From Oehlia diaphana (Eukaryota > Glomeromycota > Glomeromycetes > Glomerales > Glomeraceae): DNA of 42,756 nt. Below are positions 7,165-42,002 of the stretch, one piece after another. The stretch lies in NCBI GenBank assembly GCA_003833135.1, contig QZLH01000168.1, positions 75,157-117,912 of the forward strand, read 5' to 3'. The first letter of the stretch is position 1, and every line of letters begins with the position of its first letter. Under the pieces are notes generated by a model. It was not told where the DNA came from and searched no databases. It was given only the letters and a program-made list of their open reading frames with translations. The position numbers and the translations under genes were made by a program.

Positions 7165-9835
7165 ATGTCAAAGAAAGCGATTCTTACATTAGAAGTATAA
7201 AAATGCATTATTTATTAATTTATTTATTTCAAAAAAATAAAATCTAGCTAAAATATATACTATATTGTTTTTTATTATAGGACGGTGAAATTGTTAAACA
7301 ATATTTGAAAGAGTATGAAAATTCTTATGAATGTCTTGCGTCAATTAGAAAATTAACTCAGAGCACATATGCAAGATTTACAGACAGACACATTTATTAT
7401 TAGTAAGTTTTTAATAAGTTATTTTTTTCTTTCTTTCTAAGACATCGATATATATGATTATTTTAAATTTTAGCTGGAAAAACCATCTCAATCCGCGTTG
7501 TATGTGAATTTATCTATTAATATTAATTTATTTTTGTTTTATTTTTTTCTAAATAAAAAAAGAATTACATTAATTTTAGTTATCTTTTATACTTTTATTC
7601 TTTTAGTATGTCACGATCCTTTAACACATGATGAAATAAATTTTATTGTTGAACAAGCTCAAAAACAGCAAAGATCAAAAGTTATCGATTGGAAATTCAT
7701 AATCCGTGATTTAGAAAAGAAATTTGGCAGACTACATTCTATAAATAAAATCAGAGACTTTTGGCATTCATGGAATTTTGATCTAAGCTGTAAGTGTATA
7801 CATACGTATTATATTGATTTTAAGAAAAAAACTAATATATATATATTTCAATTCTTTAATACAAAGTATATCATGATCAAGAATGTCACGATCCCTTAGG
7901 AGATGATGAAAAAAAATTTATTATTAGACGGGTTCCAAAATACCAAAATTCGTATATGATTTGGGAATCTGTTATCCGTGATTTGAAAAATAAATTTGGT
8001 AAACTTCGTTCTGCAGATAAAATTAAAATGGTTTGGTACTCGAAGCAAAATAGAATTCTCGATATGGATTGTAAGTAGTTCTTATCTTTAGTTATCTTTT
8101 TTTCACGTAAACATATTTTAAATTTAGTAATTTAACACGCTTCTTTGATAGTATGTCCCGATTTTTTGGGAGATGAAAAAATATTTATTATTCAAAAACA
8201 TCGAACATCGAATGGTACCATTTGGAAATATGTACTTCGCGATTTAGAAAATAAATTTAGTAAATTTCACTCCAGGAATAATACTTATTGCTTACAAAAT
8301 TGTGAATTTAAACAACATTACAACCCTGAAGAAAAATGTTATAATAACTATGATACAATTGAACTAACTAAATGTGAAAAATCCAATGCTGATTATTATG
8401 GTGTATGTCCTAATTGCAAAAAAATAAACACTGGATATGCATGGTGTAAGAAATGTGATCCAGGTAAATTTTTGAGGGAAGGAAAAGCAAGTGGAAACAC
8501 TGAAATAAACCAACTAATTTATCAAGCGCAAATCAAGACTCAATCTTATTATAGTAATTTAGAATGGATATCTTATGATAAATTTCAAGATATCAAACTT
8601 GTTGCAGAAGGTGGGTTTGCGAAAATATATTCTGCTATTTGGCTAGATGGTGAACCTAAACTTAATAGAGAAAAAAAGAGGTCTCCTCCAATTACTGTTG
8701 CTTTAAAAAGAATTAAAGATACAAAATTTACGACAGAAGCTTTCGTTAATGAGGTATTTGATTGTTTGATACACTTATAATTAATTTTGCTTTATATATG
8801 CTATATTAATATTATTTTATTTTAATTAGATTAACATACATCACCATTGTGTTTTACACAATGCGAATTTGACGAAATTTTATGGAATAACTAAAGATCC
8901 CGCAACGAATGAATTTCTTATGGTCTTAGAATATGCTCATGAAGGAAATTTAAGAAATTACCTTGAAAACAACTTCATAAATTTAAAATGGAAAGATAAA
9001 TTAAATATCTTAATAAGTATTGCGAATAATCTTTTTAATATTCACAAACTAAAATATATACATAGAGATTTGCATAGTGGGAACATACTTCAATTTTATA
9101 TCGGTGGTTTTGGTACAAAAATAACTGATTTAGGACTTTCACAATCAATAACAAATTCAAAATCTTCTTATTGTTCAAACGTTTTTGGGGTTCTTCCTTA
9201 CATAGCACCTGAAATATTAGATGGTAAATCTTATACATTGGAAAGCGATATTTATAGTTTCGGAATTATAATGACAGAAGTGTCAACCGGAAAATCACCT
9301 TACAGAAATGTACCGCATGATGGAAATCTTGCATTAAAAATATGCAATGGTTTGAGACCAAGAGTAGCTAAAGGGACACCAAAATGCTATATCGATTTGG
9401 TAAACCAATGTCTTGATGTAAATCCAGGAAAAAGGCCCTCATCAAAAGTGTTACTTAAAACAATTAGAAATTGGAGATTTCCTAACGTTAATTATTCCCG
9501 TCTCGAAAAATCTTTTGATGAACCAGAAATTCCTAAAGAATTTATTGATGCAGATAACATTATGTTTAAAAAATCCTTTCCTGAAATACTAAAACATTCT
9601 GAAGCAATTTATTCTGGTCGTTCTATGTGTTTTTATAATCTTCCTGTACCAAGGAATTCCGCAAAAGTTCAAATTGAAGATCCAGAAGGTAGTAAAATTT
9701 TACATATAAATATTTATCAATTCTTTTGTATTTATTTGTGTATTTACTAACTTTTTTTAAATGATATCACTTATTGTAGTCCCAGATTCACGTTTGGTTG
9801 AACTTCATATTTCCGGAAAATCAAATTTTAATTAG
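7165..9835 (+). CDS. Triple Myb/SANT-like repeat protein fused to a zinc ribbon and TKL protein kinase
   Basis: Eight exons give an uninterrupted reading frame of 693 residues: 7165-7194, 7281-7402, 7474-7499, 7607-7789, 7867-8070, 8152-8753, 8830-9688, 9780-9835 (TAG). The start ATG at 7165 is followed by a consensus-like donor at 7195. Exons 4, 5 and the start of 6 each encode one repeat of the form C-H-D-P-L-x-D-E-x-F-I ... W-x(2)-I/V-x-R-D-L-x-x-K-F ... S-x-x-K-I-x-x-x-W, a helical Myb/SANT-like pattern. All three begin at a phase-1 intron, with matching TATGTCNCGAT starts. Next is a zinc ribbon CPNC-x10-CKKC, then SGN, then the kinase: EGGFAKIYSAIW, VALKRI, HRDLHSGN, TDLGLS (DLG instead of DFG), YIAPEI, and DVYSFG-like DIYSFG. 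The catalytic residues are intact, so it is probably active. A DNA- or protein-binding role for the repeats is inferred. A dead 5' copy lies at 331. Confidence 0.88.
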
Positions 9836-17260: not shown

Positions 17261-18062
17261 TTCCTTTAGACTTAAACAAATTGGATCTCACCCGTACTTA
17301 TACTCCAGAGGAACTTGAACAAATTAACAAATGTCTAAAAGTTCGTACTAATTTTGAAAATGGAAGGCTAATCTCTCTTCCTCAAACTCCAATTGCTCAT
17401 GAGGCTGTTGTACATGAGATTTCCAGACAACTTGGTAACTGGAATATTGATACCTGCCAAAACGGTGTTGTTACTACATCTCAAGGGGCTTTTAATTTTA
17501 GTACCACTGCACCAAAAAAAAATCCGAGCACCACATGTTGCTTTTACGTCTGCAAATACTTACAACTCACTTAATGCAAAACAACTTTGGACTTTGCATG
17601 GCCGACCTTTTACTCCCATATTTGTTGCTGAGGTTATAAATAGTACAAATGATCAAATACTTAATGAAGTTGATAATAGGTTCAAAAATGATTACTTCGC
17701 AATGGGTACATCTGTAGAGTTAGGATGGTTAATTGATGCAAAAAACAGCATGATCTGTACTTATAAGAGGAATAATAATGAAATTATTCGTAATAATTGT
17801 AAATGGGAAGATTTAGATGGGGGCGACACTTTACTAGGTTTTACTTTAAACATATCAATAATTGAGAAAATTGTTTCACAGGTATATGTTGTTTTTATTG
17901 CTTTTATGTTGCAATGTTCTACCTTTTTATTTACAATTTAATTTTTTTTTTTCATAGGAATGTGATGAAATTGAAGATAAATGCCCTTATTGTGATTCAC
18001 ATTTTACTCAGGTTTTTGCTATGTTAAAACATATAGCAAGAGTACATATTGTTGTTAAATAA
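17151..18062 (+). CDS. Uma2-like PD-(D/E)XK nuclease-fold protein with C-terminal C2H2 zinc finger, frameshifted
   Basis: Three exons: 17151-17181 (MPKNKEPENF), 17270-17881 and 17958-18062 (TAA). Exon 2 carries the Uma2-type fold (restriction-endonuclease-like, PF05685 by recognition): TPEELEQINK, FENGRLISLPQTPIAHEAVV, then RAPHVAFT, LWTLHGRPFTPIFVAEVINS, LGWLIDAKN and WEDLDGGDTLLGFTL. The frame shifts by one base in the run of nine A at 17513-17521; with eight A the protein would be 248 residues and continuous. The expected catalytic Asp of the RAPDVAF motif is His, while the Glu of AEV remains, so nuclease activity is doubtful. Exon 3 encodes a textbook C2H2 finger, CPYC-x12-H-x4-H, suggesting nucleic-acid binding. 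It is either a real gene with a homopolymer error in the sequence or a recent pseudogene. An extra copy of exon 1 precedes it and a decayed copy of exon 3 follows. Confidence 0.75.
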
Positions 18063-19715: not shown

Positions 19716-20569
19716 TTACAAGATGTGTTGATAAACCTCATGAAAATTACCAACGGTCAGCTGACGCATTGTTTTAAGTAATATTAATAATAATATAAAA
19801 AGCTATTCATATTGATGATGATCAAATTGATAGATGGAAAAGGATACATTGTTGTTTCATTCATATGGATATTTTACGGAGTAAACAAAAATGGTAACAA
19901 AATAACAAAATTTTTCTGACGATCCTAATAAGATATCACGTGTTGATCCGCAGGTGACTTTTTGGCAGTCTTTATTAGAGTTTCCTGTTTACTATATTGA
20001 AAAAAAGTATGAACATATTGCTACCAAAATACATTTCCTTTAATTTCCACTTTTAAATGATTTTACTTTACCGGTAATAAAATTAAGTAATTATTTCGAT
20101 TAATATTAATTTTTGTGGGAAATTTATAAATTTATATTTAATAAAGCATTTCCAAGTAAAAAAAAAAAAATAAACTAAAAAAAATATTGCTTACCAAAAC
20201 ATATGTCAAACAACTTCATAATTTTATTACACAGGTTGTACCGCGAAATTTAATGTGACTTATCGTTAAATCCTTTTTAAATATATTAAAAAAAAGATCT
20301 GCGTTTGAAGTAAGATTACCACATGCAAAGATCAATTTTATATAATTTGACGATCACACATCTTGAATCAAATTAGTCCAATTTAGTAAAAATAATGGAT
20401 TATTATCTTTAAATATTAAAATTTCACCATCCTCAGGTCTAATCGGTTCTCAAATAATTGTAGTTTACTAAAGGATATAAATATATCTAGAAAAAAGAAG
20501 CTGAATAAAGTAAACAAAAAAAAAAGTATACCGTGGCGCAACAGCGTCTACAAAAAAAAAAAAAAAAAA
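19716..20569. other. Intergenic DNA and 5' flank of the first P450
   Basis: No gene is seen. The P450 start codon at 20570 follows directly on a run of 19 A (20551-20569), preceded by GTGGCGCAACAGCGTCTAC. The A-run would be a highly unusual immediate 5' leader, but the ATG matches the expected N-terminal membrane anchor. Confidence 0.4.
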
Positions 20570-22312
20570 ATGATGATTTTTAAACTATTTGAAAATTTTG
20601 GAATTTATGATTGCATTTTATTCTTAACAGCAATGTTAATGACATATGTGGCATATTATTATTACAAATATTTTACTCGTATCAATTCTTTACCTGGTCC
20701 ATTCCCATTCCCGTTCGTCGGTAATTTGCCTCAAATTTTGTGGTTTGGTGGAAACATCATAATGTTTTATGATTATTGTTACGAGAAATATGGTGACATA
20801 TACGAGATTTATAGTGTAAATATGCGAACTATAATTTTATGTCGAGAAAAATACCTTGAAAACATTTTATCAGATAATACATATGCAATGAAATTTCCAA
20901 AATGTGAAGTAACAGAAGAATTGGGACTTTACGGAAAAGGATTAACGTTCAATAATAATTATAAATCGTGGATGTTTAATAATCATTTTTTTAATCAAGC
21001 TATTTTGTCACCAAAATTTACTAATGAAGCTATTGATCAGACAAACAAACTTTTCAATGAATTAGAAAGTTATTGGATTAAGTTATTCCTTAAGGAAGAA
21101 ATTATTAGAGAACATAAAATTAAATTGGATTTTTCTGAATGGTTTTATCATTACACAAATGATTTTATTATTAAATTGTTAACTGGTAAGAGATCTTATT
21201 CAATGGCAGCTTATTTTGATACTCTTAGTGACGAAAAAACTGATTATCCATTAGCAATAGCAGCAAAAGTTGAAGATTCTGTGAGATTATTTGAAGCATT
21301 ACGTAGATTAGTTATAGGATATTCAATGTTTTTCGTAATTCCTTCTTTTATACGACATAATGTTCCATTTGTTAGAAAGAAAATAAATGAAATAAAACAA
21401 ACCTTTAGTTATGTTAATCAAAGATTGGATGAATTAATTAAGAATCGAAGACAAGAAATTGAATATACACCATTGAATGAACCTTTATCGTATGATATGT
21501 TGACATCGATGATTATCAAAAATACAATTCGTGATAATAATTATATCGAAACTGGTGAACCCATGAGATCTATGACTGATGCTGAAATTCGCCTTAGTAT
21601 ACAAGAAGCAATTAGTAGTGGAACTTTTAAAGTAAGTAAATCTTATTAAGGAAATTTTTATTATACATTACTTTAATCATTGAAACGCAATGTACTTTTT
21701 AACTTGAAATTAATTTAAATACTCATTTTTTTATTTCAAATATAGACTGGAAATTTACTCTCATTCATTGTCTATTATATTGTATGTAATCCAGATGTAA
21801 AAAAGAAAATGTTAAAAGAAATTGATAATGTATTCCAAGGTGATAAAAGGCGACCAATTACTAAAGATGATTTTTATAGTTTAAATTATTGTGAAGCAAT
21901 TGTAAAGGAAACAGCTCGCATTCTTCCAATAGTACATACATTTACAAGATATATTGATAAACCTAATAAAACGGCAGAATATCATTGGCCAGCTGACTCA
22001 TTGTTTCTAATTTATTCTAAAGCTATTCATAATAATGATAAAATTTGGGAAGAACCTAATAAATTTAACCCTGATAGGTGGATGGTTGAAAATTTTGAGC
22101 CAAGGAAAAATTCTTTTCTTATGTTTGGTGGAGGATTAAGATTATGTCCAGGAAGAAAGTTATCAATGATTGGAATAGTTTGTTTAATGGCTTTATTGTT
22201 TAGAAAATATGAAATTAATTTAGTAGATATGAATAATCCTATTAAAATTACCAGTGACGGCAGTATAATTAAATGTCTCAACTTAATAGTTGAAATTAGA
22301 TCAAGAAATTGA
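20570..22312 (+). CDS. Cytochrome P450 monooxygenase with non-canonical I-helix
   Basis: Two exons, 20570-21631 and 21746-22312 (TGA), separated by a GTAAGT...TAG phase-0 intron, give 542 residues, a normal length. The protein begins with a hydrophobic anchor (CILFLTAMLMTYVAYYYY) for the endoplasmic reticulum and a proline hinge (LPGPFPFPFVGNLP). Later come the K-helix E-x-x-R (ETAR), the PERF-type FNPDRW, and the haem-binding loop FGGGLRLCPG with Cys as thiolate ligand. The expected oxygen-activating AGxE/DT of the I-helix is replaced by SGTFKTG across the splice junction, so the acid-alcohol pair is missing. Such P450s exist but often have unusual chemistry. The substrate is unknown; the fold predicts NADPH-reductase-dependent oxidation of a lipophilic compound. 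Confidence 0.93.
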
Positions 22313-30196: not shown

Positions 30197-33100
30197 TTAC
30201 TTTAAATTAACCATAAATTCATTCAAATCTTCACTTACTAGCATTTCGCTCGCTTGTACATTAGCTTGTGAATTTTTACTTTCAAGAATTTCATTCAATT
30301 TTTTACTATTAAAATCAAGTAAGCGACTTGTACAACATGCTTGTGGATGAGATTCAGTAGTAAGATTGTTGTACCCAATTGGTGCATTTATAAATTCTAT
30401 AATCTTGCATTTTAATTCTTCATTAATGTCTTCAATTTTCTTATCATAAGGAAGAAAAATCCATTCTCCAATTATATTTAACACTTCTTTAGAAGATGGT
30501 CTTTTTAACGGATCTCCATCCCAACATTTTTTCATCAAATCAACATAGCATTGTGGGGTATTTTCAATAATTTCAGGACGCTCACCTTTACAAATACTTA
30601 AACTAAGTTGTAAATCATGTGCTCTGCCATTAAACGGTGGTACTCCAGATGTAAATTCCCACATAATCATAGAAAAACTGTATACATCACTAGCTGGAGT
30701 ATAAGGTTTGCCTCTAAAAACTTCAGGTGGCATAAATGATATAACTCCAAAAATATCATCCTTTTTCAAAAATGATTTTACAGGTCGACACAATCCTAAA
30801 TCACAAACATAAAGTTTATCCTCACTTTTATCTTCATGATTTAAAATATTTCCATCATGAAAATCACAATGAATAAGATTTTGTTCATGTATATCACTCA
30901 GTCCAGTAATAATTTCATATAACATATATAATTTTTGTTTCCAATTATATTTGATTACTCTTGTTAAATTTCCTCTTAAATTACCTTTGCTTGCATAATC
31001 CATTACTACCATATATTTTAAAGAATCTGGATCTTTTGTAAATCCATAAAAATTAATAATATCATATGAGTTTAAAAAACTTACATGATACTTCCACTAT
31101 AAATAATAAAATATATATTAGTATATTAGTATAGATAAAATTATAATTTAAAATAAAAAATAAATAATAAATTTTCATACCTCATTTAAAAATTCATCTA
31201 AATTATCATTTAAATTATTATGACATTTAAGAATTACTTCTTTATTACCACTATTATTTAACCAAATAGCTTTATATATAACACCAAATCCTCCTTTACT
31301 AAAATATTCAACATTTTTAAATTTATTATAAGGAATCCATCTTAAATTTTTTTCATAAATAAATTCATCTATTGTTGTATTTCCACTTTTTCCAAATCTA
31401 TGAATTTAAACAATTAAAATTTTATTAATAAAATATATATTAAAATTTATGCTAAAATTTAAAAAACACTTACTCTAAAATTCAAATAGGAATTTAATAT
31501 AATATAGTAAGTCTTAGTTTTTTGTATAAATATATATAAAAACCTATAATTCACAAACTTACCAACTAAAGTAAAAGATAATTTTTTAAATGAAAGAATT
31601 TGGTTAACAAACAAATATTATATATAATATAATAATAGAAACAATAAATAACTTACAATCTATATCATTAAATGATTTTTAAATAAAGAATTTAGTTAAA
31701 TTAAATTATATGCAAATATTATTTAAATATATAAATTAAATAACTTACTATCTATAATATTAAATAATTTTAAAATAAAGATTTAATTAGCTTAAATTAT
31801 AAGTCAATATATAAATATGTAATAGAATTAAATAAACAACTTACTCTCTATATTATTAAATACAGTAATTTTTAAATAAAGAAATTAGTTAGTTTAAATT
31901 ATATGTAATTACTAGGAAATGGAAACCGTTGTAAGTCCGGAGCGAACGATTTTGTACAAAAATCCAAATATCTTTAAAAATTCAATTTGTACAAAAAATC
32001 TGATATCCCTAAAAAAATAAAAATAAAAAATAAAACGTTAGAAACGTTTCTTTAAAGCAAAACAAATAAAACACAACTCACCAGTCCGGTATGTACAAGA
32101 AATCCAGAAACCTATATATTCTAGGAAAAAAATAAGAAAGTCGTTTAAAAGAAAAATATACTTACTAGCCGAAATCTAAAAAAAAGGTAATCATAACTTG
32201 TTTATTTTTGATGTAGCACGAAATTTCAATACACATTCTGTGCGGACCAATCAGAAATGACGCGTGCGGAAAACCGGAAATCGCCACGTGACACTAATTG
32301 TCATCGCCTTCGCTACGCTCCGGACAATTACAATAAGTAATAATAGAATTAAATAAATAACTTACTCTCTATATATTAAATATTTTTTTAAATAAAGAAT
32401 TTAGTTATTTGCAAGTGTTATAATAAAATTGAATAAATAACTTATAACTTACGCCCTAAAAGAAATTATAAAATAATTTTAAATAAAGAATTTAATTAAT
32501 TAAATTATATGCAAATATGTAATAATAGAATTAATTAAAATAACTTACACTCTATATTATTAATTAAGTTTTTAAATAAAGAATTTATAGTTAGTTGAAA
32601 TTATATTTTGATAATAATAGAATTAAATAAATAACTTACGAACTATATTATTTAAATAATTTTAAATAAAGAATTTAGTTAGTTAAATTATATGTAAATA
32701 CCAATAGAATTAAATAAATAACTTACACTCTATATTATTAAATAATAATTTTTGAATATAAAGAGTTTAATTAGTTTAAATCATACGTAAGCAATAATAG
32801 AATTAAATGAATAACTTACGAACTATATTTATATTAAATAATTTTAAATAAAGAATTTAGTTAATTTAAATTATATGTAAGTCATTAGTAATAGAATTAA
32901 ATAAATAACTTACTAGCTATATAATTAAACAATTTTTTTAATTAAAGAATTTAGTTAGTTTAAATTATATGTAAATAATATTTAACTATGATATATAATA
33001 ATAGAATCAAATAAATAGCTTATAACTTACCAGCTAAAAATAATTTTTTAAATAAATAGAATTTAGTTAATTCAGGTTATAAGTAAATATTATATAAATA

Positions 33101-35510
33101 CGCAATAGAGGAAATAATAATTTTACGCAGGCCGTTGCATCAATCATTCACGATCACGTGATATCATAAATTCCGTTTTTTTTTTTGAATAAATGCGTAT
33201 AAATTTCAAACCCCTAATTAAATAACTTACACTCTATATTATTTAAATAAAGAATTTAGTTAATATTATTAACCAATTATTTAAAAAAGAATTTAGTTAG
33301 TATAATTACATGTAAATATTATATAAATATGTAATAATAATAGAATTAATAAACAACTTACTATCTATAATATTAACCAATTTTTTAAATAAAGAATTTA
33401 GTTAGTTTAAATTATACTAAAATATTACTATATAAATATGTTTTACTTGTAATAGAATTAAATAACTTACTCCCTATATTATTAAATAATTTTTAATAAA
33501 GGTTAGTTTAAATTATAAGTAAATATTACATAAATAAGCAATAATAGAATTAAATAAATAATTTACATGCTACATTATTAAAAATAAAAAATTTAGTTAG
33601 TTTAATCATATGTAAATATTATATAAATATGTAATAATAATGAGTTAAATAACTTACACTCTATTATTATATCATTTTTTTAATAAAGAATTAGTTAGTT
33701 CAAATTATATATAAACATTATATAACCAAATAATAATAGAATTAAATAAATAACTTACTCTCTTTTAATAAGTAATTTTTGAATAAAGAATTAGTTAGCT
33801 TAAATATATATAAATATGTAATGATAGAAATTAAATAAATAACTTACGAACTATATTATTAAATAAAGAATTTAGTTATTTTAAATTATAAGTAAATATT
33901 ATATAAATAATAATAGAATTAAATAAATAACTTACTATCTATAATATTATTATATATTTTATTAAATAAAGAATTTAATTAGTTTAAATTATTGTAAATA
34001 TTACATAAATAAGTAATAATAGAATTAAATAAGTAACTTACTCTCTATATTATTAAATAATTTTAAAATAAAGAATTTAGTTAATTTAAATCATATGTAA
34101 TAATATCAGAATTAAATGAATAACTTACGAACTATATTTAAATAAAGAATTAAATTAGTTTATATTATATGTAAATATTATATAAATACATAATAATAGA
34201 ATTAAATAAAAAACTTACACTCTATATTATTAAAATAAAGAATTTAATTAGTTTAAGTTAAATTAAATATTATATAAATATGTAATAGAAATAAATAGAC
34301 AACTTACTTTCTATATTATTAAGAAATATTTATAAGAGAATTTAGTTAGCTTAATTATATGTGAATACTATATATATAAATATAATAAATAATAACTTAC
34401 TCTCTATATTATTATTATTAAATAAAGAATTTAGTTAGTTAAATTATAAGTAAATATAATATAAACGTGGATCAAATAACTCATAACTTACCAGCTAAAA
34501 GAAATTACATAATAATTTTTTAAATAAAGAAGTTAGTTTAAGTTATATGTAAATATTATAAATATGTATAATAGAATAATAAATAACTTACTCCCTATAT
34601 ATAAATAATTTTTAATTTAATAATTTAGTTAGTTTAAATTATATGTAAATATTATATAAATATTTATAATGTTAGAATTAAATAAATTAACTTACGCTCT
34701 ACATTATTAAATATATAGAATTAGTTAGTTTAAATTATGTAAATAAGTATAGAAGAATAAATAAATAACTTATAACTTACTAACTAAAAGAGATTACCAA
34801 ATAATTTTGTAAATAGAGTTTAGTTAGCTTAAATTATATAAATAATAGAAATATAAATATCATGCATATAACTTACACCCTGTATTAATTATTAATTAGT
34901 TAGACATAAATAGTATAATACAAAAGTATTTACTGTAAATTAAATAAAACACTTACAATCTAATTATTTAAATTAAGAATATAATTAGCTGAGTTATTAT
35001 AAAATATTAAACAAATAAATAATTTTTAAATATTGAAACTTACTGACTGTAATATAATTAATTATTAAATAGTTATTTAAACAAAGAATTTAGTTAGTTA
35101 TTTAAGTAAAATAATTAAGTAAAGAACTAAAGATTTAACTTACAAACTATAGTATTATTAACGAATTATTTAGTTATATGGGTATAACAAAAAATAAGTA
35201 ACTCCATTGTTATTCAATTATATATACATTAATAAACTTACGAGCTAAATTATTTTTACGTAATATAGTCATAATAAAGTTAGTTTAAATTGTATATGTA
35301 TATTACATAAGATATAATTTAAATTATTTACAAATAATTTTTATTTAATAATTAAATAAAAATTTTGATGTCTCAGCTCGTTTAATATATTATATTTACC
35401 TTCAGATTCCTCGGTGCTACTTGAAACTTATTGCAAGTTGTTTATAAGTTTTAGAATTCTAATTATATTAAATGTTCATGCTATATATGATTTTTACCTT
35501 TATCGGCCAT
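30197..35510 (-). CDS. TKL-type protein kinase whose N-terminal region is encoded by an array of 3-nt microexons
   Basis: The catalytic part is clear: exons 31397-31181 and 31096-30197 (stop) encode SGNTTIDEFI, IPYNKF, SKGGFGVIYKAIW, the lysine in EVILKC, FYGFTKDP, the loop HCDFHDGN, CDLGLC (DLG), MPPEV, DVYSFSMIMWEF and a tail of about 85 residues. HCD replaces HRD, so it is non-RD. Upstream, a 13-nt exon with ATG (35510-35498, MADK) and a 27-nt exon (35426-35400, VSSSTEESE) precede 34 exons of exactly 3 nt and one of 1 nt (31474), each with GT and AG borders; positions are in the array entry. The total is 1260 nt, 420 codons, with no internal stop. The array ends N-N-F-E, joining F-G-K-S-G-N as in the NF(x)4SGN linker I recall for this family. 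The kinase exons are near certain; the 5' model is inference from splice signals and frame. Confidence 0.75.
31911..32338. mobile_element. Insertion of about 425 bp inside one unit of the array
   Basis: The regular unit sequence is broken after ATATGTAATTACTAG and resumes at TAATAATAGAATTAAATAAA. The insert differs in composition (GC-richer: CACGTGACAC, ACGCGTGCGG). It has inverted ends, TTGTAAGTCCGGAGCG on the left and CGCTCCGGACAATT on the right, and repeated phrases GGATTTNTTGTACA in its left half. On the minus strand it contains its own strong splice-like signals (a 10-nt exon at 32165-32174 and a 30-nt exon near 32086-32115), but the host intron can simply run through it from 32365 to 31848, keeping frame. 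Confidence 0.6.
33113..33215. mobile_element. Short insertion of about 100 bp in another unit
   Basis: The unit between the triplets at 33231 and 33031 is about 200 bases, twice normal. The extra part, from about GAAATAATAATTTTACGC to TTTCAAACCCC, is unlike the array (it contains ACGATCACGTGATATC and a poly-T run). It is likely a small insertion or a fragment of one; no clear terminal repeats. Confidence 0.45.
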
Positions 35511-38616: not shown

Positions 38617-40653
38617 ATGTTTGACCTGATTTCTTTAGTTGGTTTTTTTATATTAGGAATTCTAGGGTGGGCCACTTATAAAATATATATTTGGCCAGTT
38701 TATATTACACCTTTGAGAAAAATTCCCGGACCACCATCTGAAAGTCTAATTTATGGAAATTTTAAAACAATTGTGACAGAAGAGGTTAATAATATTATTA
38801 TTAAATCGGTAATCATGATTCTTTTTTATACAATTTTCTTTCTTTTTATATATAGCGTACGTGCCTTAAATGGGTACAAAAATACGGGAATATTATAAAA
38901 TTCCATGCTGTATTTAATCAGCCAGCCCTTCTTATCTTGGATACGACAATAATTCAAGATATTTTATTAAATCATGTTTATGATTATATTAAACCTCTTC
39001 GTATGTTGGCTGATGCTATTGCAGTGGCTGGTAAAGGTCTTGTATTTGCAGAAGGTGTAGATCATAAGAGACAAAGAAAAATGATGAATCCGGCTTTCAT
39101 TCATAATAACATCAAAGTAATTATAATTCATTGTAGGTAAATCAATATAAAGTTAATTAAATCAAATTAATATGTTCATTCAATTTTAGGAAATGGTTCC
39201 AGCGTTTAGTCGAGTAGCTTTTACCTTAAAAAGTTTAATCGAAGATAAAGTGAACTTAGGAGAATCTGAAATTAATCTTACTCCTTATCTCTCAAAAGCT
39301 ACTTTAGACGTGATTGGCTTAGTCGGTGAGAAGATAATAATTTTTTTTCAAAGTTTATGTTTTCGTATTATTAATAAAAAAAAATTTTTTTTTTTCTTTA
39401 GGATTTAATTACGATTTTAATACATTAACGTCTTCAAATGAATTAGCAGGAGCTTATGAATCTCTTATGAATGCTCCAAATACTGCTCTACGCATTGGCA
39501 TTAGTTATTTTTCAAGTTTTATTCCATCTATAAGAGAACTTCCAATCGATATAAATAAGAAATTTAAAAATGGTTGTGCAGTTGTTGATCGCGTATCAAA
39601 GAAATTGGTTGAAGAAAAATATAAAGCGGCAGAAAGTGGTGAATTGAAAGGAAATGATCTCTTATCTCTTTTAATTAACATCAATAAGACATTGCCTATT
39701 GAAGAGAAAATGACTGACAACGAGTTAAAATATCAGGTAAAATAAGAGAAGAATTTTGTAATTTGTCGTCATAGTGCCATGGATCTAATATAATGTGACA
39801 ATTCCACATCATAATTTTTTCTTGTTAATATTATTGCTTATTCATCGTATATATTATCCTAATCACTTTTTTTGAATGTTTTAGATTATGACATTTTTAT
39901 TAGCAGGACATGAAACTACAAGTATAGCAATTAGTTGGGCTTTATATTACCTTTCACGATATCCACATATGCAAGACTTATTGCGTGAAGAAGTAGTTAA
40001 AGCTTTTCCCGATAAATCAAAATTCAATCCCACATTTGACGAAATTAATTCTTTGGAATATTTAAATTGCATAGTTAAAGAAACTTTAAGATTAAATCCT
40101 CCAGGTATACATTCAAATTTTTAATTTTTTTTTTTTTTTTTTTTTTTATACATATCATCTTATTAACATTGTAATTCTACTAAAGTTCTTGTTACTAGTC
40201 GACTTAGTACTAAAGATGAAATTTTTGGAGGATATCACGTTCCAAAGGTATATTTACCGTTTTATATTTTTTTGTCAAAAATTAAAATTATTAATTTGAT
40301 CTTTTTTTTATTATTTTAAAAAATAGAATACTCTAATTATGATTCCATTTTCATTACTTCATCGACTACCTGAAATTTGGGGCCCAACAGCTGCTGAATT
40401 TGATCCAAAAAGATGGTTAGATCCTTCCTTAATTAAGAACGTAACAAATTATAACTATTTGCCCTTCCTTGCTGGTACAAGAGCTTGTATAGGCAATAAA
40501 GTAGCCTTGACTGAATTTAAAATATTATTGAGTATGTTAATTAGGAATTTTGTTTTTAAACCAATTGAAGGATTTAACATTAAAAGAAGATTTATTCCTT
40601 TGGATAAACCTGATCCATACCTTGGATTATCTGTTTCTAAAGTTGAAAATTAA
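38617..40653 (+). CDS. Cytochrome P450 monooxygenase (seven exons)
   Basis: Exons 38617-38808, 38856-39116, 39190-39325, 39402-39736, 39885-40104, 40186-40247 and 40327-40653 join in frame to 510 residues. The N-terminus is a membrane anchor (LVGFFILGILGWATYKIYI) with a proline hinge KIPGPPS, placing it on the endoplasmic reticulum. All catalytic signatures are intact: I-helix AGHETT, K-helix KETLRL (E-x-x-R), FDPKRW, and haem loop FLAGTRACIG. The general reaction is NADPH-reductase-driven insertion of one oxygen atom into a lipophilic substrate; the substrate is unknown. Introns are 47-148 nt with GT-AG ends, two preceded by long T runs. The family within the CYP nomenclature cannot be assigned from sight. 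It differs strongly from the P450 at 20570 in exon structure and sequence, so the two are not a recent tandem pair. Confidence 0.95.
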
Positions 40654-41774: not shown

Positions 41775-42002
41775 AAGGTCAACACTAACTCCAAAGGTAA
41801 AAGTTTCAGCCTAAGCTAACCTTCCTTACCTAACCCTAAGATACTCCAATGTCTGCGTTATCTTTAAGGATAAGTATTTGCGCCTAAACCAACTTTCCTT
41901 ACCCTAACCCTAAGATACTCCAACGTCAATGTTATCTTCAAAGATAAGTATTTCAGCCTAAAGTAACTTTTCTTACCCTAAGTCCTAAGATACTCCACTC
42001 CA
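41775..42002. repeat. 75-bp tandem repeat with telomere-like CCCTAA units
   Basis: Three copies plus a partial one. The phrase CCTAAGATACTCCA recurs at about 41836, 41910 and 41985 (period 74-75), followed by GTTATCTTNAAGGATAAGTATTT and GCCTAAA. The copy at 41900 contains TTACCCTAACCCTAAG, two and a half telomere-type CCCTAA units. This is a minisatellite and not a telomere, as the remainder of the unit is unrelated. Confidence 0.8.

Follow-up and report, generated by a model that had tools for sequence, protein, structure and literature searches.

The stretch of DNA analysed here, referred to below as the window, comprises 42,756 nucleotides (nt) of contig QZLH01000168.1 of Oehlia diaphana, and its minus strand holds a protein kinase gene whose 5' part is composed of a row, or array, of 34 three-base blocks set between intron-like units. 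The joined open reading frame (ORF) consists of positions 35510-35498 and 35426-35400, the 34 triplets, a single A, and positions 31397-31181 and 31096-30197, and is open over 419 codons. The conceptual protein begins MADKVSSSTEESE and, searched as a whole, matches PF07714 (E 2.6e-39).

Exon 1 (ATGGCCGATAAAG; 35498..35510, minus strand as for all parts of this gene) ends in phase 1, a direct reading accompanied by paralogues with similar starts. Exon 2 (35400..35426, 27 nt), as read from the sequence, encodes the acidic peptide SSSTEESE and has phase 1 on both sides. In the related gene L028, exon 1 was read as joining the array in phase 1, and exon 2 was not seen. The array (31475..35399), supported by splice borders, stop-codon tests and peptide homology, contains 34 predicted three-base exons and 35 introns, with array intron lengths of 77-518 nt. 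The first bases of the triplets are 35244, 35146, 35046, 34959, 34879, 34783, 34698, 34594, 34494, 34403, 34310, 34221, 34131, 34044, 33938, 33850, 33761, 33660, 33569, 33473, 33364, 33233, 33033, 32916, 32822, 32729, 32642, 32551, 32455, 32368, 31847, 31751, 31659 and 31565. From 35244 down to 31563 all 34 are flanked by AG and GTAA(G/A)T, the donor after the triplet being GTAAGT in 33 units and GTAAAT in one, and all joints within the array are in phase 1. The window contains 33 exact copies of AGNNNGTAAGT, where 0.54 are expected and no shuffle gave more than 3.

The array is followed by a one-base exon, A (31474), which takes the frame from phase 1 to phase 2 and supplies the second base of the codon for Glu in E-F-G-K. 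Kinase exon K1 (31181..31397; FGKSGN...GGFGVIYKA) contains the glycine-rich loop, and kinase exon K2 (30197..31096), including the stop codon, is a 299-aa open frame. The predicted message would thus run from exon 1 through exon 2, the 34 triplets and the single A to ATTTGGAAAAAG. An earlier note on this DNA had described 34 triplets between GTAAGT or GTAAAT and AG, followed by a one-base exon, and the 34 of 34 borders and the A at 31474 bear this out; the triplet kinds, put there at 17 or so, number 18.

Two array introns contain insertions, both with limits drawn approximately by eye and with the neighbouring triplets intact: one at 33110..33216 (unit spacing 200) and a repeat-like one at 31915..32328 (unit spacing 521). 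No inverted-repeat ends were found for the two insertions (31915..32328: none of at least 14 bases), and plasmid records searched gave no match.

Arrays in the genome and their splicing signals

The word AGNNNGTAAGTTATTTATTTAATTCTATT, 29 bases taken from the array, has 235 copies in the 108.8-Mb genome, and its reversed control has none. The array is not confined to one kinase gene, as the earlier note had it: arrays were read in 28 genes of this genome, namely the window gene, 16 of 20 loci fetched around array words and 11 of 11 loci fetched for the kinase exon. The other four word-fetched loci (L010, L012, L023, L027) have only 0-2 units each; these are single or paired stray intron-triplet-intron junctions away from any array, as though array fragments had spread. 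K1 matches lie downstream of 25 of the 28 arrays, with none for L018, L021 and L026 among the matches listed. Genome-wide, K1 matches at least 57 places at E <= 1e-19, the window included, which is a lower bound as 150 of 1833 candidates were scored. Within the array spans of the 28 genes, AG stands exactly three bases upstream of 692 of 717 GTAAGT; among the 25 exceptions are chance matches, units that lack an acceptor and one-base exons at array ends. Some arrays are at or near contig ends (C37, C52, C79, C134), so the assembly may be interrupted by arrays, and for some of them the unit count is a minimum. A protein of Rhizophagus diaphanus (now Oehlia diaphana) is identical to locus L031 across 330 residues, and together with the match of public model P0035 to the window gene this makes it very likely that the genome belongs to that species. 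R. irregularis, R. diaphanus and R. clarus are named among the 120 listed of 826 protein matches.

The one-base exon was found by pattern search in 22 of 24 genes (A in 19, G in two, T in one) and by eye in four of four divergent genes, giving 26 of 28 overall. The joint codon at this exon is Glu in 16 of the 17 genes scored and Arg in one. If it is left out, the window ORF meets a stop at the tenth codon; if the array is skipped and the A kept, the frame stays open. The terminal one-base exon would serve to reset the frame for the kinase.

Array introns have a median length of 95 nt (n=575). CTAAC is present in 269 of these 575 introns (shuffled introns, 15.6; opposite strand, 8) and a wider branch motif in 457 (221 when shuffled), with the last branch-like A a median of 35 bases before the intron end. 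Donors in 512 units are GTAAGT (455), GTGAGT (19), GTAAAT (9), GTAAGA (6), GTAGGT (6), GCAAGT (4) and others (13), so that 57 of 512 differ from GTAAGT; GTGAGT, GTAAAT, GTAAGA, GTAGGT and GCAAGT are usable donor forms. Each short intron would come with a complete set of donor, branch site and acceptor. It would be removed via intron definition, most likely one after another starting at the 5' side. With this order of removal, a triplet would first be joined to the longer upstream exon and would never hold two spliceosomes at once.

The triplets themselves are restricted in composition. Among 664 triplets, those starting with GT (9 vs. 87.9 expected), TA (6 vs. 24.4) and TG (13 vs. 42.9) and those ending in AG (12 vs. 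25.5) are rare, and we read these as triplets that, between their AG and GTAAGT, would give rise to a competing donor or acceptor. Avoidance of rival splice sites would leave few codons for Met and Cys and few that end in GT or TA. In arrays compared with kinase exons, codons ending in GT make up 1.0% vs. 7.9%, codons ending in TA 1.0% vs. 9.2%, Met 0.5% (3 of 575 codons) vs. 3.3% and Cys 0.5% (3 of 575 codons) vs. 2.6%. Trp (8.2% vs. 1.7%) and Arg (11.1% vs. 3.2%) are abundant in the arrays.

Codons across the joints and the encoded peptide

In phase 1, each codon consists of the last base of one triplet and the first two bases of the next, letters that are about 95 bases apart in the DNA. 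Neighbour pairs were used only if the units were at most 150 bases apart, and triplets were shuffled within genes. In the pooled 28 genes, a single stop was found among 696 neighbouring phase-1 codons, vs. 35.8 +- 4.5 expected and a minimum of 19 in 3000 shuffles (TAG 0 vs. 15.4, TAA 0 vs. 10.8, TGA 1 vs. 9.5); this one stop lies in L026, an array at a contig end. The first 19 genes have 1 stop in 438 neighbour codons (23.8 +- 3.6 expected), a fresh set of five genes scored with the earlier matrix 0 in 137 (6.4 +- 1.8 expected; minimum 1 in 5000 shuffles), and the four genes of a divergent clade 0 in 121 (5.7 +- 1.8 expected; some shuffles also 0). The window array by itself has no stop vs. 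3.4 expected (P 0.007). Codons TGG (53 vs. 34.7) and TTT (55 vs. 37.4) are enriched in the pooled set, and the phase-1 codon likelihood under kinase usage is -5.93, vs. -6.38 for shuffles (best of 1000, -6.18). Phase 2 is not depleted of stops (75 of 575 vs. 58.0 expected).

All array units are symmetric (phase 1-1), so any of them may be skipped in frame, and many isoforms could arise by omission of units with the frame kept at each skip. This combinatorial splicing is unlikely, since skip-one joints have stops at or above chance (34 of 498 vs. 24.1 +- 3.4 expected; 6 of 108 vs. 4.8 in the divergent clade) and skip products are thus not kept open by selection. Longer skips of up to six units likewise gave no clear stop depletion. 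As stops are avoided in phase 1 at neighbour joints and not at skip joints, selection appears to act on messages that hold every triplet in order.

Public gene models suggest a different frame, in which the triplets are whole phase-0 codons that reach the kinase via a five-base last exon (NGTAA). Models P0023, P0032 and P0044 have stretches rich in L, I, G, E or V and ending in SKFGKS. Stop triplets are few (3 of 512, 0 of 152 and 0 of 136 in three gene sets), and the phase-0 codon likelihood of -6.17 exceeds its own shuffle (-6.39; best -6.25), an excess that within-triplet structure from duplication could produce. The stop count is not far under the shuffle (3 vs. 6.2, P 0.06), with stops present in L013, L018 and L024, and on reading L035 its end joint would be AGT-TAG; in L036, a single unbroken ORF was read that starts at the ATG and continues without an intron into the array, which it enters in phase 1. 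The phase-0 peptide of the window gene has no homology, and stop avoidance over neighbour joints would go unexplained. The R. diaphanus model P0035 was read as equal to the window-gene K2 except for one 32-residue gap; it incorporates ten codons from an insertion and lacks some of the triplets as well as K1 with its glycine-rich loop. Several other public models start just ahead of FGKSGN. These models are presumably software output and not transcript evidence, and we regard whole phase-0 codons as hardly credible. A phase-0 path through exon 1 and a 17-nt exon 2 was dropped on the stop and homology tests, exon 2 being 27 nt (acceptor AATAAG/TTTCAAG, phase 1).

The phase-1 reading is also supported by homology. 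When the window peptide across introns and kinase start was searched against the genome, uninterrupted exons of other kinases were found elsewhere, the best with 48% identity over residues 5-53 of 53 (E 3e-4). In the six uninterrupted-exon loci fetched, the matching exons lie in open frames, and for one locus, relatives in R. irregularis and R. clarus carry a kinase-like annotation. With one gap, the L044 segment YCKKCSKKFINEQNKWCKSCQIDYLKSNF can be aligned to WFKRTEKKFQNIQKSWNKSAIQFQWQKNNF, and all four cysteines of the L044 segment are substituted in the window peptide, a loss that fits the limited array code. The homology test was prompted by this genome match, and the re-test scored the triplet-coded residues alone: their mean score is 48.2, vs. 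a mean of 19.9 (SD 2.74, maximum 37.3) in 20,000 order shuffles, and phases 0 and 2 give 14-26. A protein-database search with the first 54 residues of the window protein found nothing, and a retrocopy search with the conceptual peptide of L035 gave matches only from residue 21 of 50 on, at kinase exons.

These results bear on the possibility that the array is a satellite or a cluster of dead introns, which is spliced out whole as a single intron or precedes a later start, with triplets that are never translated. The units are tandem and alike, exon 1 and the one-base exon alone would likewise hold the kinase in frame, and stray unit fragments occur without an array at the four loci mentioned above. 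Such material would not avoid stops at phase-1 neighbour joints as distinct from skip joints, nor would its ordered triplets spell a homologous peptide in the window gene, and no other reason is evident for covariation between bases some 95 nt apart. Satellite DNA is a tandem repeat free of coding constraint, whereas codon-level constraint extends across these units, and an untranslated array is very improbable.

Several observations weigh against translation of all triplets in phase 1. The unit scan preset the three-base spacing and the AG, although the freer GTAAGT count (692 of 717) agrees with it. Where the gap exceeds 150 bases, joints show no stop depletion (3 of 65 vs. about 4.1), most simply because unrecognised units lie within these gaps. 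Units are partly duplicated, so shuffles overstate independence; 352 distinct pair types include one stop type. GTT codons are depleted (11 vs. 30.5 expected), which stop avoidance does not account for, and triplets starting with CG are rare (8 vs. 28.3), which avoidance of rival splice sites does not account for. The excess of stops at skip-one joints (z +2.9) is unexplained. On reading, public model P0035 of the window locus chains 22 of the 34 triplets in phase 0. The 27 other arrays have no homology to the uninterrupted exon (lowest P 0.10), and with a Fisher value of 0.099 over 28 genes the homology is claimed for the window gene alone.

Taken together, the sequence data make it very probable that the 34 blocks are one-codon exons, all joined in order, that encode the segment between the acidic start and the protein kinase domain. 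The phase-1 joints and the one residue per exon put forward in the earlier note are thereby supported, by the stop avoidance at neighbour joints and by the window peptide homology. The fast-changing Trp- and Arg-rich stretch ahead of the kinase may, as a guess from its composition, have a docking or recognition role.

Origin of the arrays

Two origins have been considered, both of them already raised in the earlier note: entry of introns at every third base, and growth by duplication of intron units. Same-gene unit pairs with 94-96% identity in both flanking introns agree at only 49-64% of their triplet bases (82, 36 and 12 pairs by threshold, non-independent and selected for intron likeness). 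Alike introns with differing triplets mean that the triplets did not simply travel with the introns, or changed roughly nine times faster, or that the introns were homogenised. Together with an uninterrupted relative of equal order and near-equal length, this favours intron entry between existing codons in the window gene, where copies of one intron likely entered an existing zinc-ribbon-like exon. Nearest-neighbour introns were set aside as a guide to history, as triplets are shared in only a minority of cases (left triplet 15%, right 24% at the highest likeness; about 4% by chance).

The alternative, that the arrays come from tandem duplication of an intron plus three coding bases followed by divergence, concerns the origin only and is a serious possibility, if the less favoured one. 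It would suit the nearly constant three-base spacing, the series of as many as ten consecutive alike intron pairs per gene (a figure without chance control) and the peptide of L009, which spells SLNGRR-TLNGRR-TLNN. It is at odds with the mismatch between introns and triplets and with the window array, which retains the order and nearly the length of the uninterrupted exon. Fast triplet change, or intron homogenisation by gene conversion, could reconcile duplication with differing triplets. Of the two origins, intron entry is thus favoured by the window homology and the intron/triplet mismatch, and signs of unit duplication are seen in other arrays. Across the family, the coded segment may then have diversified fast while the introns stayed alike and units were in part duplicated. 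Why each joint sits three bases from the previous one is not explained.

With moderate confidence, we propose a one exon = one codon architecture, in which dozens of kinase genes have a hypervariable segment spelled one codon at a time, with an intron of its own splitting every codon 1+2. The grammar of splicing would rewrite the usable code (almost no Met or Cys and almost no codon that ends in GT or TA), the recognition segment would change residue by residue without a frame break, and the arrangement would have arisen when introns entered a zinc-ribbon exon at each of its codons.

Elsewhere in the window, a kinase gene of similar broad kind lies at 8136-9750 (plus strand) in two uninterrupted stretches, with CPNC...WCKKC...SGN ahead of the kinase; the second stretch matches PF07714 (1e-35), the first has no Pfam match, and the layout is array-free. 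Cytochrome P450 coding sequence occupies two stretches at 20420-22312 (plus strand; PF00067, 6.1e-20 and 3.1e-37), with a weaker P450 piece at 39341-39745 (plus strand; 3.8e-5). An open frame at 17372-17941 (plus strand) has an Uma2 match under the Pfam cut-off (PF05685, 1.4e-4), and 74-base units are repeated in tandem at 41804-41997 (2.6 copies, 84% matches).

Comparison with known systems

If transcripts confirm the arrays, the spliceosomes of this fungus connect three-base exons one after another by the tens, a finding hard to fit to current views of exon definition and of how small an exon can be. The family would also offer a natural test bed for intron gain, with one gene still resembling its uninterrupted relative, and a protein segment in which splicing seems to restrict the choice of amino acids; it may further account for public models without these N-termini and for P0035 without the glycine-rich loop. 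No array of one-codon exons was found in the open-licence papers searched, a search that was incomplete and in part missed a known 3 bp micro-exon paper.

Schistosome micro-exon genes have most of their coding sequence in short symmetric exons and encode a secreted product with a signal peptide. In the window gene, the array contributes 102 of 1260 coding bases, and the kinase lies in two ordinary exons. Schistosome exons are 3-81 bp and introns up to 5 kbp (PMC10526429); both systems build protein from tiny exons, but exon sizes vary and introns are long there, whereas array exons are 3 nt, array introns are alike and short, and the product is a kinase N-terminus. The window triplets are predicted tiny internal exons between splice-site sequences, and a single 3-nt micro-exon is likewise internal in Drosophila homothorax (PMC7392893); that one is alternatively spliced, whereas here rows of tens are apparently all included.

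Introners or introner-like elements provide many alike introns per genome (PMC9860276; PMC4457414), as here, where the introns are however tandem, apparently belong to one gene family and have a fixed three-base spacing. Introners are inserted in many unrelated genes and are marked by target-site duplications or transposon ends, though exons of three bases would offer scant space in which to recognise a duplication. Stwintrons are adjoining or nested introns excised in consecutive reactions (PMC8469720; PMC12403724), and consecutive reactions also characterise recursive splicing (PMC6224609). In contrast to stwintrons, no intron is nested in a splice element of another, the array introns lying end to end with three bases between them. 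Ratchet sites in recursive splicing are abutting AG/GT with a zero-length exon, whereas the arrays have AG-NNN-GT, and triplets starting with GT are depleted about ten-fold. One-base exons needed for the frame are known from APC11 in Arabidopsis (PMC4674806) and from CYP621A in Fusarium, where the exon was argued from an intronless relative and reads (PMC12940212). In the kinase genes described here, the one-base exon, likewise needed for the frame, ends an array and was read in 26 of 28 genes, so that the family would add many nuclear one-base exons to these plant and fungal cases.

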